Source: Gemmatimonadaceae bacterium
GTDB lineage: Bacteria > Gemmatimonadota > Gemmatimonadetes > Gemmatimonadales > Gemmatimonadaceae
Assembly (NCBI GenBank): GCA_025927495.1
Contig: JAICLH010000007.1
Span: forward strand, 1-37,990
Reading direction: 5' to 3'
DNA: 37,990 nt
The notes below the pieces were generated by a model. It saw only the letters and a list, made by a program, of their open reading frames with translations. It had not been told where the DNA came from and searched no databases. Within the stretch, counting starts at the first letter, position 1; each line of letters begins with the position of its first letter. Position numbers and translations under genes: made by a program. This document shows, piece by piece, positions 10,413-26,967 of the stretch.

Positions 10413-10477
10413 GCAGGGCGAAGGCCATCGCGGCCACGGGCCGTCGCACGATTCACGGGATCATCGGAGAGTAGATG

Positions 10478-10490
10478 CCTACAAAGTAGG
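10478..10490. promoter_or_regulatory. Palindrome core CCTAC-AAA-GTAGG (operator-like, copy 1), no obvious cognate gene
   Basis: Same 13-nt core as copies at 17951-17973 and 25190-25216; imperfect complementarity extends outward (ACTCTCCGATG / ACTCCCTGATG). Confidence 0.6.
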
Positions 10491-10813
10491 TGATGACTCC
10501 CTGATGGCTGCCGAGCCGTTGCTCGCGCGTCCATAACATTCTCCTGACATAGCGCGTCACACTCGCGCGCCGATCGCACGCTCGGGGTCATAGCTTCGGC
10601 CGAGCCCGCCTCGGCGTTTGTCAAGGCCGCGTCAAGTTCGTGTGAATCCTGCCGGCGGCGTGCTACCCGCGCGCGGGCCCCGCTCCATCATTTCCCTTCG
10701 TGCCGGGCGGTTTCCGCCCCGCCTAACGTGCCACTGGCGGCGCCAACCCGTGCGTTGACGTCACCGCCCGTGTGTGATCACCACACCCCGAGCGACTGGG
10801 AATAGGAGGCAGC

Positions 10814-17124: not shown

Positions 17125-17895
17125 ATGTCCGACTCCCCGGCCAAAGGCCGCATCGTCTGGCACGATCTCATGACCCCCGACGTGCAATCCGCGGTCTCGT
17201 TCTATAAGGAGGCTGTCGGGTGGGGAACCGAGCCGTTCTCGATCGGCAGCGGACCGCCATATACCATGTGGACAGCCTCGGGCACGCCGTTGGGCGGTGT
17301 GATGAACATGACGCCGGCCGCGGCCGACATGCCGCCGCACTGGCTCGCATACGTGAACGTGCCCGACGTCGACGAGACGGCTGAACAGGCCGTCGCCCTG
17401 GGCGGCTCGATCCACAAAGAGCCCACCGACATCCCCGGCGTCGGCCGGTTCGCCGTCATTGCCGACCCACAGGGCGCGACGATCTGCGTCTACACACCGA
17501 AGCAAACCGACACGGCCGCCGATGCGCCGCCCAAGCTGGGCGAGTTCTCGTGGCACGAGCTGAGCACCACCGACGTCGCCGCGGCGCTCGACTTCTACTC
17601 CAAGCTGTTCGGCTGGACCGCCGGCCCCGCGCACGACATGGGTCCGCTCGGCACCTACCAGATCTTCGAGCGCAACGGCGTTCAGTTAGGCGGTATCTTC
17701 GTGTCGCCGCCCGACGACAGGGTCCCGCCTAACTGGCTTGCCTACGTGCGCGTCGACAGCGCCGACCGCGCGGCCGATCGCGTCACCAAGGCCGGCGGGA
17801 AAGTGTTGAACGGGCCGATGGATGTGCCCGGCGGCAGCCGCATCGCGCAGTGCATGGATCCGCAGGGCGGCATGTTCGCCGTCCACTCGATGTAG
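17125..17895 (+). CDS. Two-domain VOC/glyoxalase-family protein
   Basis: Repeated module GRIVWHDLMTPDVQSAVSFYKEAVGW / GEFSWHELSTTDVAAALDFYSKLFGW with PPNWLAYVRVDSADRAADRVTKAGGKV. Confidence 0.92.
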   Translation: MSDSPAKGRIVWHDLMTPDVQSAVSFYKEAVGWGTEPFSIGSGPPYTMWTASGTPLGGVMNMTPAAADMPPHWLAYVNVPDVDETAEQAVALGGSIHKEPTDIPGVGRFAVIADPQGATICVYTPKQTDTAADAPPKLGEFSWHELSTTDVAAALDFYSKLFGWTAGPAHDMGPLGTYQIFERNGVQLGGIFVSPPDDRVPPNWLAYVRVDSADRAADRVTKAGGKVLNGPMDVPGGSRIAQCMDPQGGMFAVHSM

Positions 17896-17896
17896 A

Positions 17897-17945
17897 TCGT
17901 GGTCGAGCCGGCCGCCGTCGCGAAGTGCCTTTTGGAGGACATCAT
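17897..17945 (-). pseudogene. Truncated 5' remnant of the HTH-NTase gene at 25223 (MMSSKRHFATAAGS...)
   Basis: Minus strand ATGATGTCCTCCAAAAGGCACTTCGCGACGGCGGCCGGC aligns with GTGATGCTCTCCAAAAGACAATTTGCGTCGGCCGTCGGC at 25220; identical 14-nt spacing from the palindrome to the ATG. Confidence 0.65.
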
Positions 17946-17950
17946 GGAAA

Positions 17951-17973
17951 AGCTGCCTACTTTGTAGGCAGCT
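17951..17973 (-). promoter_or_regulatory. Palindrome AGCTGCCTAC-TTT-GTAGGCAGCT (operator-like, copy 2)
   Basis: Perfect 10-nt arms; same core as copies at 10478 and 25190; sits upstream (minus strand) of the gene remnant. Confidence 0.75.
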
Positions 17974-18298
17974 AGTGGGGCGCGTCTGAGGTTCGGATAG
18001 CAGTCAAGGGAATGGGGAAGCGCTCGCGACGCTCGCTTGGGGAAGCGCGAACGCTGAGGGAAGCGGCGGCGACGCCGCCTGAGGGGGTGGAAGGACATCA
18101 GGTGTCCCTGGGTGGAGAGTCTCGAATCGCCGAGGCTCGCGCGCATGGCACTCACGTTGTGCAGACCATTGATGTTGTTCCGCCCCTCAGGCGGCGTCGC
18201 CGCCGCTTCCCCCAGCGCAGCGCTTCCCCAAGCGAGCGACAGCGAGCGCTTTCCCATTCCCCATAACCGCTATCAGAATCTCTGACGCAGCTCACTAG
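17972..18298. repeat. Long imperfect inverted repeat (about 110-nt arms, about 95-nt spacer)
   Basis: Left arm CTAGTG...GTCTGAGGTTCGGATAGCAGT...AAGCGCTCGC..GCTCGCTTGGGGAAGCGC...GGGAAGCGGCGGCGACGCCGCCTGAGGGG matches the reverse complement of 18183-18298 along its length. Confidence 0.85.
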
Positions 18299-18455: not shown

Positions 18456-21400
18456 ATGCACATGTCACGTCCGCTCGTCGTGCGTTCCGCTCTCTGTCTC
18501 GCAGCCATCGTCGCCTTTGCTGCGCCGCCACTCGCAGCGCAAGCCAAGCAGAAGGGTGACACCAGCACCGTCCCCGCGAAGCAGCCGTCCAAGGGGAAGG
18601 CTCCTGCCAAACCGGCCTCCGACTCGTCTGCGGACACCACCGCCGCCGCGAGCATCGACTCGCTCGCGTGGCTCGGCATCCGCAACCTCGGCCCGACGGT
18701 GGCCGGCGGACGCGTCGCCGCGGTCGCGGGCGTGCCCGGCGATCCGAACGTGTACTACGTCGGTCCCGGTGGCGGCGGCGTGTTCAAGACCACGGACAGC
18801 GGCATCTCGTGGAAGGCGGTGTTCGAGAAGCAACCCGAGGCGTCGATCGGCGCCATCGCACTCGCGCCCAACAATCCGAACATCGTGTGGGTGGGCACGG
18901 GTGAGGCCAACATCCGCAACGACGTGATCAACGGACACGGCGTCTATCTCTCGACCGACGCCGGACAGAGCTGGCACTTCATGGGCCTTCGCGACGCGGG
19001 ACAGATCTCGCGCATCGTCATCGACCCCGCCAACAGCGACCGCGTATTCGTCGCGGCGGTGGGCAACGCGTGGAAGCCTAACGGAGAACGCGGCGTCTTC
19101 CGCACCACCGACGGCGGCCGCAGCTGGAAGAAGGTGCTGTTCGTGAACGATACCACCGGTGCCGGCGACCTGGTGATGGAGCCCGGCAACCCGAGCGTGC
19201 TGTTGGCCGGCACGTGGCAGGTGCGGCGCTTCCCGTGGAAGCTCGACAACGGCGGGAAGGGCAGCGGCATCTGGCGCTCCACCGACGGCGGCGACACCTG
19301 GACGCGCCTGCACGAGGGGCTGCCCGACGGGCCGTACGGCCGCATTGCGTTAGGCACATCGAAATCCGACCCGACGCACGTGTACGCGATCGTCGAGGCG
19401 AAGTCCGGCCTGCTGTGGGAGACGCACGACCTGGGCGACCACTGGTCGAGCGTCAGCGGCAACCATGCGCTCGACGTGCGCCCGTTCTACTTCTCGCGCA
19501 TCGACGTCTCGCCCACCGACGACCGCCGCGTGTACTTCTCGTCGTTCCAGCTCATGGAAAGCCGCGACGGCGGCCACACGGCGCACGAGATCGACGGCAA
19601 CACGGTGCACCCGGACCACCACGCGCTGTGGATCGATCCGACGAACCCGGCCCGCATGATCCAGGGTAACGACGGCGGCGTCTACGTCAGTCACGACGCC
19701 GGAGCCAGCTGGCGGTACCTCAACAACATTCCGATCGGACAGTTCTACATGGTGGCCGCCGATTCTCGGCAGCCGTTCCGTTTGTGCGGCGGCCTGCAGG
19801 ACAACAACGCGTGGTGCGGTCCATCCAACAATCAGGTCGAAGGCGACGGCAGCGGCGCCGAGTGGTACGCGGTGACCGGCGGCGACGGCGAATACGCGGT
19901 ACCGGCGCCGAGCGACTCGAACATCATTTACGTGGATTCGCAGAACGGGTTCGTCACGCGGCTCGATCTCAAGACGGGCGTGTCGCGCCTCATCCGTCCG
20001 TACATCCCGGGCGTCGAGCAGACGGCGCCGGCCAACCTCAAATACCGCTTCAACTGGACGTCGCCCATCGCAGTCTCGGCGTCTAACGCAAACGAGGTGT
20101 TCCTGGGCGGCAACGTGCTGTTCAAGAGCACCGACGGCGGCGCGCACTGGACGGTGATCAGCCCCGACGTCACGCGCAACGAGAAGAGCAAGCAGGTCAC
20201 GAGCGGCGGCGACGTCGAGTACGACATTTCCGGCGCCGAGACCTACAACACGATCCTGACGATCACCATCGCGCCTACCGACAGCAACGTGATCTGGTTA
20301 GGCACCGACGACGGCAACGTCCAGGTGACCAGGGACGGCGGAAAGACATGGACCAACGTGCGGCCCAAGGCAAAAGGGCTGCCCGACGAGGGCCGAGTGT
20401 ACCAGGTTGGCGTGTCGCCGTTCGATGCCGGCACCGCGTACATCACGCTCGACGACCACGAGTTTGGCGACGACTCACCATACGTGTTCAAGACGACGAA
20501 CTACGGCGGCAGCTGGGCCGCCATCTCGCGCGGCCTGCCGGCGTACGCGGCCCACGTGGTGCGCGAGGATCCGGCGCAGAAGGGCTTTCTTCTGTTAGGC
20601 ACCGACAACGGCCTCTGGTATTCGCGCGACGCGGGCGAGACGTGGAAGTCGCTGGCCAGCGCGTTTCCGACCGCGCCGGTGTTCGACATCCTGTTCGTGA
20701 AGAACACGCGCTCGGTCGCCATCGCCACGCACGGGCGCGGGCTGTTCGTGCTCGACGACATCGCGCCGCTCCAGGCGCTCACGCCGCAGATTGCGTCGTC
20801 GGCGTTTCACGTGTTCGACGTAGAGCCCGCCACGCTCTGGCACTCCAACGAATACGGCGGCCCATCTGCCTCGGCCTACCACGCGCCGAGCACGCCGCGC
20901 GCGGCGGTGATCCGCTACTGGCTCGCCAGGAAGCTCGAGGCGACGGCGGCGCAGAAGGCGCGGCACGAAGGCGCGGTTCGCATCGCGATCCTCGATGCGC
21001 AGAACGACACGGTGTACACCGGCAACGGCGGCGCCAAGGCCGGGATGAACACGTTCGAATGGCGGCTCGGCTACAAAGGCCCAACCAAGTTAGCCATCGC
21101 GCCGGCGCCGCCGCCGGGCGCCGGCGACGATGGTTTCCCCGGCCCCGATGTGCTGCCGGGCACGTATACGGCGCTCATCACGGCGAACGGTCAGACCGAG
21201 CGCCGCGCGATCGAGGTGCGGTCCGATCCGCACCTCGCCTACGATGCCGCCGCGGCGCGCGATCAGTTGACGAGCGCGCTGGCGCTGCGCGACGACGTCT
21301 CGTCGGCCAACGCGATCCTGAACGGGTTGCACAGCTTGCGGCGCCAGTTGGCGGACGTCGATTCGACCGCCACGGCGCTTGCGCCTAACGGAGTGGTCGC

Positions 21401-25127: not shown

Positions 25128-25189
25128 CGCGCGCAAATGGTACGCGTGCGCCGAAACGGTAACGTTCGTAGTTGGGGGGCCATCACATA

Positions 25190-25216
25190 GTTTTTGCCTA
25201 CAAAGTAGGCAAAAAC
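25190..25216 (+). promoter_or_regulatory. 27-bp palindrome GTTTTTGCCTAC-AAA-GTAGGCAAAAAC (operator-like, copy 3) immediately upstream of the HTH-NTase start
   Basis: Perfect 12-nt arms around AAA; outer CATCAC (25181-25186) / GTGATG (25220-25225) extend the dyad across the start codon. Confidence 0.8.
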
Positions 25217-25222
25217 GTCGTG

Positions 25223-26182
25223 ATGCTCTCCAAAAGACAATTTGCGTCGGCCGTCGGCGCCACGGAGAAATGGGTCGACAACGCGGGCCGCATCCTCGGG
25301 CGACGCCTCAGTCGCACCCCATCCGACGCGCGATGGCTCGGCCTCGTCCGGGAAATCACGCAGACTTTCGAAACGACACTCGTGCGCGCCGGCGAGCTCG
25401 CCACGCGCGCGATACAACTCGATCCGCACTCGCCTCCCACGCCAATCGCCGCAAGCCGCGATGGCGCGTTGCGTCTCGTCGTCGACCTCGAGCGGTATCA
25501 TTCTCGATTTGGTGTCGCGCTCGCTGCCGCACTCCTCGATGAACGCCATCACCGCGGGCCGCCGGCTCCGCGCGCCCAGCGTGTGGCCACCTCGCCCTCC
25601 ACAGTCCTCCTTGGAGCAGCGGCGCGCGGCGCGAGTGTGATCCGGCTGCGCGCGTTCGCCTCCCTCTCGCCCGCGGCGAGAGTTGCCGCGTTAGGCGAAC
25701 CGGTGCGGGAGATGCTGTGCGGTCTGGTGCGAAGGGGCGTCGCGTGTGTCGTCATCGGCGATGTCGCCGCCGTCGCCAGAGGAGTGCCACGCGCTCGAGC
25801 ACGCCTCGAGGTGTGCTACGCGTCCGATTCCTGTGTGCCGGCGCGCCTCGCCGACCTCCTGGTCGAATGGAACGCCCGGCCGCTCGACGTCGACGGCGAC
25901 TATCCATTCGTGCCGGATCCACAAACCGTCGCGGACGCGCCGGTTCTCGCCCTCGCGACGCGCCTCGCCGCCGTCGTTCTCAGGCGGGTCGCTCGAGCGG
26001 AGTTCGCGGCACTCGTCGAGGTCTCCGAGGTGCTCGACTTCGGAACGGTTCGGGCACCCGTCCTCGGGCTCCCCGCGCTCATCGCCGCTCTCCGCAACAC
26101 GCGTCTGCCGACTCCGCCCAGCGCCATTCCGGAGCTCGAGGCCGCCGCGGCCTTGATGAATCGCGTAGATTTGAACCCGTGA
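25223..26182 (+). CDS. Unrecognised fusion: N-terminal helix-turn-helix-like domain plus C-terminal degenerate nucleotidyltransferase (AbiEii/MNT-like) domain
   Basis: N-term MLSKRQFASAVGATEKWVDNAGRILGRRLSRTPSDARWLGLVREI. C-term VVIGDVAAVARGVPRARARLEVCYA...VRAPVLGLPALIAALRNTRLPTPPSAIPELEAAAAL resembles the antitoxin/NTase layout. ATG at 25223 preferred to TTG at 25172. Confidence 0.65.
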   Translation: MLSKRQFASAVGATEKWVDNAGRILGRRLSRTPSDARWLGLVREITQTFETTLVRAGELATRAIQLDPHSPPTPIAASRDGALRLVVDLERYHSRFGVALAAALLDERHHRGPPAPRAQRVATSPSTVLLGAAARGASVIRLRAFASLSPAARVAALGEPVREMLCGLVRRGVACVVIGDVAAVARGVPRARARLEVCYASDSCVPARLADLLVEWNARPLDVDGDYPFVPDPQTVADAPVLALATRLAAVVLRRVARAEFAALVEVSEVLDFGTVRAPVLGLPALIAALRNTRLPTPPSAIPELEAAAALMNRVDLNP

Positions 26183-26967
26183 ACTACGCGCCCGAAACCC
26201 TCGAGGGCTGGTACGCCCTCCACCAGATCTTCCGTATCCCGGCCGCCGTGCTCGCCGATGCCGCGGCACGCGACGGGATGTCGCGCGCGCTCGCCGAGCT
26301 GGCGTGTCCAGCCGAGGGAGGCTGGACGGCCGCGGCGCCGCTCATCGGATCGCGCGCCGACGTCATGCTCATCCACTTCCGGCCGACGCTCGATGCCATC
26401 GGAGACGCGCAGCGCCGGTTAGGCAGCGAGCCGTTCGTCGAACGGTCAGCGCTCGTCTATTCTTTTTTGAGCGTCACCGAAGCGGGGCTCTATCATCTGT
26501 CGGCACGCCTCGCCAAGGACGCCGAGGAACGTGGCGGGGCCGTGGGCGACGACGCGTATCGCGAAGCCCTCGCCCAACGGACTGCCGCGGAGCTCGCCGG
26601 CGCGCACGTGCAGCGCCGGTTGTACCCGCAGCCCGTGCCCGACATGCCCTACGTCTGCTTCTATCCCATGTCCAAGCGCCGCGAGCCGGGCCAGAACTGG
26701 TACGAGCTGTCGCTCGAGGAGCGGAGCCGGCTCATGACCGCGCACGGCATGACCGGCCGCCGCTACGCGGGTCGCGTGGTGCAGGTGATCACCGGTGCCA
26801 TCGGGCTCGACGCGTGGGAGTGGGGCGTCACCCTCTTTGCGCGCGACCCGCTCGATTTCAAGAAGCTGGTCACCGACATGCGCTTCGACGAGGTGTCCGC
26901 GCGCTACGCGGAGTTCGGCGAGTTCTTCGTGGGCCGCCTGGCGTTAGGCGGCGAGTGGCCTGCCTAA
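26179..26967 (+). CDS. hemQ: Chlorite dismutase-family protein, HemQ-like (coproheme decarboxylase)
   Basis: GWYALHQIFRIP, ADVMLIHFRPTLDAIGDAQRRL, YPMSKRREPGQNWYELSLEERSRLMTAHGMTGRRYAGRVVQVITGAIGLDAWEWGVTLFARDPLDFKKLVTDMRFDEVSARYAEFGEFFVGR. Confidence 0.9.
   Translation: MNYAPETLEGWYALHQIFRIPAAVLADAAARDGMSRALAELACPAEGGWTAAAPLIGSRADVMLIHFRPTLDAIGDAQRRLGSEPFVERSALVYSFLSVTEAGLYHLSARLAKDAEERGGAVGDDAYREALAQRTAAELAGAHVQRRLYPQPVPDMPYVCFYPMSKRREPGQNWYELSLEERSRLMTAHGMTGRRYAGRVVQVITGAIGLDAWEWGVTLFARDPLDFKKLVTDMRFDEVSARYAEFGEFFVGRLALGGEWPA

Follow-up and report, generated by a model that had tools for sequence, protein, structure and literature searches.

The window, as we call the whole stretch of 37,990 nucleotides analysed here, comes from a soil-type bacterium of the Gemmatimonadaceae. 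An open reading frame at 25223..26182 (+) encodes a fusion protein (P0001) of 319 amino acids, as the first-pass annotation had read it, with orthologues in three further genomes of the same genus (G097, G099 and G100) and a dN/dS of about 0.36. The locus lies between a gene following uppS, which we take to be DUF4173-like, and hemQ, a HemQ/chlorite-dismutase family gene (26182..26967, +) that is the next gene, marks the conserved locus and is outside the system. In G098, of the same genus, the DUF4173-hemQ junction is contiguous without the fusion gene, and in G096 no match to the fusion protein was found beside hemQ. Elsewhere in the window, at about 18015-18265 in the gap before the gene at 18456, a large imperfect inverted repeat was seen with arms of about 70-80 nt (GGAATGGGGAAGCGCTCGC... 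/ ...GCGAGCGCTTTCCCATTCC).

A perfect 12+3+12 inverted repeat (GTTTTTGCCTAC-AAA-GTAGGCAAAAAC) was confirmed at 25190-25216, ending 6 nt ahead of the ATG at 25223. None was expected from 100 dinucleotide shuffles, and the 27-mer is beyond chance. An outer dyad, CATCAC (25181-25186) and GTGATG (25220-25225), has the same centre and runs through the start codon, as had also been noticed earlier. The two belong to a 45-bp dyad element at 25181..25225 (+) of the form CATC-N6-7-TTTTTG-CCTAC-AAA-GTAGG-CAAAAA-N6-7-GATG, the final ATG of which is the gene's start codon; a covariance model matched this copy at E 6.5e-14, the copy having belonged to the training set of the model. The inner palindrome (25190..25216, no strand assigned) is presumed to be the operator proper and is equal in size to the operators of the two-gene relatives described below. 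As RNA, the 25181-25225 stretch has a predicted fold of -28.1 kcal/mol (z -8.3). A promoter-box scan placed no standard promoter ahead of the window gene, whose own boxes are weak.

Searches of Pfam, NCBIfam, PADLOC and PDB sequences with the whole window protein found nothing. The AlphaFold2 model, for which the input was an alignment of the window protein with the proteins of the related loci, was confident, with a pLDDT of 91.8 and a pTM of 0.85. It begins with a winged HTH domain, probably of MerR type (aa 1-66; 25223..25420, +; pLDDT 93-98), the second helix of which spans aa 15-25 (EKWVDNAGRIL). The model and the alignment then place a beta-hairpin and a long helix at aa 67-110 (25421..25552, +), possibly a dimerisation segment; D88, R91 and G112 are close to invariant in the alignment of the window protein and its relatives. 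An antitoxin-like helical tail (aa 124-158; 25592..25696, +) corresponds to the C-terminal tail that the relatives' free HTH proteins carry. A PDB profile match of this tail to the designed repeat protein 8etq was discarded as a helix-composition match. The remainder is a pseudo-nucleotidyltransferase (NTase) domain (aa 159-315; 25697..26167, +) in which the GG, GS, DxD, third D, K and D motifs are all replaced.

The fold of this C-terminal domain was recognised in two ways. A profile from the free (active) NTases matched it with 86 bits over nearly the whole length, and in a Foldseek search of the PDB the top hit was MenT1 from the MenAT1 complex (E 8.5e-4, probability 1.0), ahead of TM1012 and then the ANT(2'') NTases. 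For the free HTH protein of a two-gene relative, modelled with a pLDDT of 86.4, the best PDB matches were CvkR and RacA (rmsd 1.7-1.9 over 61 residues, E > 0.5). The HTH-like N-terminus and NTase-fold C-terminus proposed from the sequence were both borne out, the former probably as a MerR-type domain, on AlphaFold models and Foldseek matches with weak E-values. When aligned with relatives, members of the window's genus have GG changed to GD, GS to GV or GA, and DxD to RLEV or LLEI; the window protein has GD, GV and RLEV, and its K and D are absent. The proposed replacement of D-x-D by ARLEV agrees with this alignment, in which the relatives retain D-[LIV]-D. Catalytic motifs were replaced in all four gene-bearing members of the genus. 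Between G100 and G099, dN/dS was 0.37 for the dead NTase domain versus 0.21 for the HTH part, and judged by these rates the dead domain has been kept under purifying selection.

The family search covered 180 genomes, six of the window's genus and 174 others. Close full-length orthologues (~53% identical) were found in the same genus only. In most other genera the two halves are separate adjacent genes, HTH first and NTase second, and across the Gemmatimonadota the relatives are mostly such tightly coupled pairs, with an overlap of 1-4 nt or a gap of a few nt and with an intact NTase. The free HTH protein is ~160-200 aa long and the free NTase ~160 aa. The free NTases retain G-G, G-S, D-x-D, third D, K and D, and some exceed the Pfam cut-offs for DUF2204 and AbiEii. 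Alignment with these pairs shows the window gene to be a fusion of their HTH and NTase genes, and the anatomy and ancestry of its protein are well supported. From its layout and family, the two-gene arrangement is probably a toxin-antitoxin-like operon; neither the NTase nor the HTH protein of the two-gene form gave a match when plasmids were searched. The toxin-antitoxin-like function suggested by the first-pass annotation would hold as an ancestral link, but a working toxin today is judged unlikely because the motifs essential for AbiEii toxicity are gone.

In genus g7, what follows the HTH protein in the fusion is a truncated NTase piece that lacks the catalytic motif, or else a longer, degenerate NTase; at nine g7 loci (L015, L016, L018, L020, L021, L024, L032, L072 and L073) the fused NTase fragment lacks the catalytic half. 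Many family genomes also have a separate group of proteins of ~126-134 aa with the HTH and middle part only (profile 5-122) and neither tail nor NTase, for example G042:C2:244685-245050, G001:C14:53935-54288 and G163:C1:274138-274503. The antitoxin-like tail occurs without the HTH at G087:C238:15052-15665, L025 and G014:C2:555079-555237; in G087 it stands directly ahead of an NTase, which suggests that the tail is a partner module of its own. G177 has a second, more distant NTase ORF (L014 341-835, +) upstream of its two-gene module.

An inverted repeat no more than 45 nt from the start was detected in 17 of 48 distinct loci at p<=0.01 (dinucleotide shuffles; ~0.5 expected). Fourteen of these are among the 44 loci outside the window's genus, so that many homologues there have a palindrome ahead of them at this threshold. 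These operator-like palindromes are clade-specific in spelling and alike in position and form (e.g. AAATATATCTAG-TCG-CTAGATATATTT), with centres mostly 13-22 nt upstream of the start. At about 12 two-gene loci (raw scan count) the palindrome falls between the two boxes of a TTGAAA/TATATT-like promoter, in a spacer of 17-18 nt, and the -10-like box ends 5-6 nt upstream of the ATG. The half-sites track the sequence of the HTH helix: EKW[VI][DE]N is paired with CCTA[CT]..GTAGG in the window's genus and, as an independent case, in two genomes of another genus, G174 and G173. The core in G174 is identical to that of the window and is present only at its own HTH promoter. Likewise, TCTAGNNNCTAGA was found in 4 of the 12 two-gene genomes tested, once in each, at the HTH gene's own promoter. 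Operators so placed would fit autoregulation. Since a palindrome closely precedes the start codon in many relatives, each with a spelling of its own, the operator reading is well supported, and the candidate operator spanning the start codon of the window gene is judged likely. At one of the loci (L002 3800-3960) a tandem 19-20 nt repeat (GCGCTGAAACGGTACC-like) was seen upstream of the operator, and single copies resembling it occur in the window near 25130-25165.

The earlier description of an operator at the gene's own start stood as likely, but the site is not private to the gene: the palindrome belongs to a 45-bp element of which dispersed copies exist. Its exact core, AAA spacer included, recurs elsewhere in its own genome, including two further places inside the window, which holds three copies of the element in all. 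Both had been missed, as had more across the genome. One (10462..10506, +) is 3' of a lipoprotein-like gene and the other (17940..17984, -) is 3' of a glyoxalase-like gene. Aligned copies define the 45-bp dyad, and pairing falls sharply beyond CATC/GATG. Exact cores numbered 10, 6, 8 and 11 in the gene carriers G000 (the window's genome), G097, G099 and G100, and 0 in G096 and G098 of the same genus, where the gene was not found. Among the 174 other family genomes the exact core was seen only in G174, at its own HTH promoter, and in G079, without arms; reversed-pattern controls gave 0-1. The G079 core (L090) lies inside a called ORF and was put down to chance.

With the covariance model, distinct copies numbered 11 in G000, 6 in G097, 10 in G099 and 15 in G100, of which two of the 11 in G000 (C230:52 and C236:287) may represent a single site where contig ends overlap. 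One convincing copy was found in G098, which is 81% complete and in which the gene was not found. No copy was present upon inspection in G096, G174, G173, G177 or G079, and the weak covariance matches L158 and L163 (G098), L149 (G096) and G100:C40:32258 were also rejected, the element being absent on inspection. The co-occurrence of gene and copies is drawn from six draft genomes, that of the window being 75% complete.

Simple gene calling places most copies between genes, often 10-90 nt after a stop codon, and some in divergent regions. Their neighbour genes are functionally mixed, and two copies lie between apparently convergent genes. The mixed neighbours and 3' positions argue that this is not an ordinary promoter regulon. 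Many copies occupy orthologous places across the genus, and one is common to all four carrier genomes, flanked by genes that, by eye, we take to be DoxX-like and YCII-like; orthologous sites can also be without the element. Changes on both sides of a pair were found in 41 cells, versus 20.4 ± 4.6 when shuffled (0/500; the shuffle ignores kinship), and a compensating example comes from the orthologues L117 and L118, between which a C-G pair has changed to T-A. In 7 orthologue pairs of G099 and G100, 3.5% of element positions differed versus 8.1% of flank positions, a comparison in which the cores were selected by the search and the bias favours the element. Behind the 17940-17984 copy lies a relic of the HTH gene's opening codons (17895..17942, -; MSSKRHFATAAGSTT versus MLSKRQFASAVGATE, 30/45 nt), which adjoins the 3' end of the glyoxalase-like gene; at least one copy therefore came from duplication of the HTH gene's 5' end. 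Around another dispersed copy, 234 nt were 100% identical between G000 and G100 (L085 1296-1529 and L122 1818-2051). Other flanks shared by these genomes are only about 83% alike; the identity, at a contig end, points to recent transfer or assembly contamination.

We consider it probable that the window gene is a catalytically dead, domesticated toxin-antitoxin fusion that has become a multi-site DNA-binding protein. The ancestor would have been a MerR-type HTH antitoxin or repressor followed by an AbiEii/MenT-like nucleotidyltransferase, with the two proteins joined in one chain and the enzyme dead in the window's genus. The fusion protein most likely binds the 45-bp dyad as a dimer or dimer of dimers. 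At its own gene, binding over the promoter region and start codon would shut off transcription. The same dyad would be bound at some 6-15 intergenic chromosomal places, where it could regulate neighbours or organise the chromosome. Binding of the dispersed dyads by the protein would most simply account for the shared core, the match of helix and half-site, and the co-occurrence. Against this explanation are the G098 copy without the gene, the mixed neighbours, the many copies 3' of genes and the weak promoter boxes of the window gene. Repetition of the palindrome between genes suggests that the pair has turned into a genome-wide DNA-binding system. The full course of events, in which the pair was fused, disarmed and domesticated and its former operator multiplied into chromosome-wide 45-bp palindromes, which would have made a selfish module into a global regulator or a system that organises the chromosome, is put forward tentatively, at somewhat under even chances.

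With such neighbours and positions, the alternatives to an ordinary regulon are chromosome organisation or a REP-like repeat. The main rival, which we regard as unlikely, is that the dyads belong to a mobile palindrome of the REP or MITE kind that spreads by its own route; one copy would have come to rest at the HTH promoter, and the protein would have no role at the others. As with REPs, the copies lie between genes, often shortly after the 3' end of one; the relic of the first codons means that copying of the region happened, orthologous sites are sometimes without the element, and the both-side changes could stem from hairpin template switching. However, the 6-15 copies are far under the >100 usual for REPs (PMC2817692), the core is identical to the HTH operator in another genus, which has no dispersed copies, and copies are retained at orthologous places across species. 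A RAYT transposase as the cause of spread was unsupported, with no Y1/RAYT in 5 of the 6 genus genomes and only a truncated one in G100. Control at the RNA level, in which a transcript hairpin hides the start codon and the dispersed copies are mRNA 3'-end hairpins, seems improbable. The very stable RNA fold (z -8.3), the many copies 3' of stop codons and the covarying pairs would agree with it, but the palindrome of many relatives is in a promoter spacer, the -10-like box being 5-6 nt away from the ATG, and therefore would not be transcribed; copies also occur in both orientations relative to the preceding gene and in divergent regions, and a T-run terminator is absent.

Two further readings concern the protein. 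A dead NTase fold that binds a nucleotide or RNA and thereby alters DNA binding is rather doubtful, less so than the RNA hairpins, and would refine rather than replace the domesticated fusion. The domain is under purifying selection though catalysis looks impossible, and nucleotides are bound by other NTase-fold proteins; yet the glycine/serine and lysine positions for AbiEii nucleotide binding or toxicity are also lost, and a purely structural or oligomerisation role fits the same data. That antitoxin-like and toxin-like parts fused into a single-chain system are still active is very improbable, since none of the four genus members retains any of the catalytic motifs and equivalent single mutations abolish AbiEii toxicity (PMC3985639). 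For the preferred reading, a dead, multi-site fusion, the relatives would offer a natural series for the taming of a toxin-antitoxin module: a free HTH protein with an active NTase, a fusion with a dead NTase and elsewhere a truncated NTase, the last step sitting in another genus. It would also be a simple, testable case of a private operator turning into a dispersed set and, if binding is confirmed, an unusual origin for a global DNA-binding protein.

Among known systems, AbiE has the same layout as the two-gene relatives. There, the gene of the wHTH antitoxin AbiEi is followed, with a 4-nt overlap, by that of the pol-beta-like NTase AbiEii; AbiEi binds inverted repeats at its own promoter, its autoregulation has been demonstrated, and single mutations in the NTase motifs of AbiEii abolish toxicity (PMC3985639). 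An inverted repeat at the promoter or start is likewise found at the window gene (25190-25216) and in many relatives, and NTase motifs I-IV (hG[G/S], DhD, K, D) are present in the two-gene relatives but absent from the window protein. The bicistronic overlapping operon of those relatives contrasts with the single fused gene and dead NTase of the window, and the HTH here is probably MerR-type instead. Neither the window protein nor its relatives had a Pfam or PADLOC match to the AbiEi family, and dispersed operator copies were not described for AbiE in the literature searched. Within the DUF2204/AbiEii/DUF6036 superfamily of Pfam, the two-gene NTases pass or approach cut-offs; the window protein matches none, having a homologous fold with the metal-binding DxD replaced (RLEV/LLEI). 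MenT1 of Mycobacterium tuberculosis MenAT1, the best structural match to the window NTase domain, is catalytically active, whereas that domain is dead, and its 7.4-kDa antitoxin MenA1 has no DNA-binding domain (PMC10435456, PMC11375011; PDB 8an5).

An HTH-plus-wing fold like that of CvkR and RacA is probable for the window family (Foldseek E > 0.5). Classical MerR proteins have an effector or coiled-coil domain, while the window family has neither and carries an NTase fusion. A precedent for a MerR-type antitoxin exists in the MerR-like antitoxins of PIN toxins (PMC2701414), where the toxin is a PIN nuclease and not an NTase. The literature yields these and NTase toxins with other antitoxins; for the combination described here, no match was found in the open-access literature, absence there being weak evidence. 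As to the element, REP/RAYT systems also have intergenic palindromes, often 3' of genes. Those systems have high copy numbers and a cognate Y1 transposase, against 6-15 copies here and no RAYT in 5 of 6 genomes, and the 45-bp element differs from them in having a core equal to the HTH operator.
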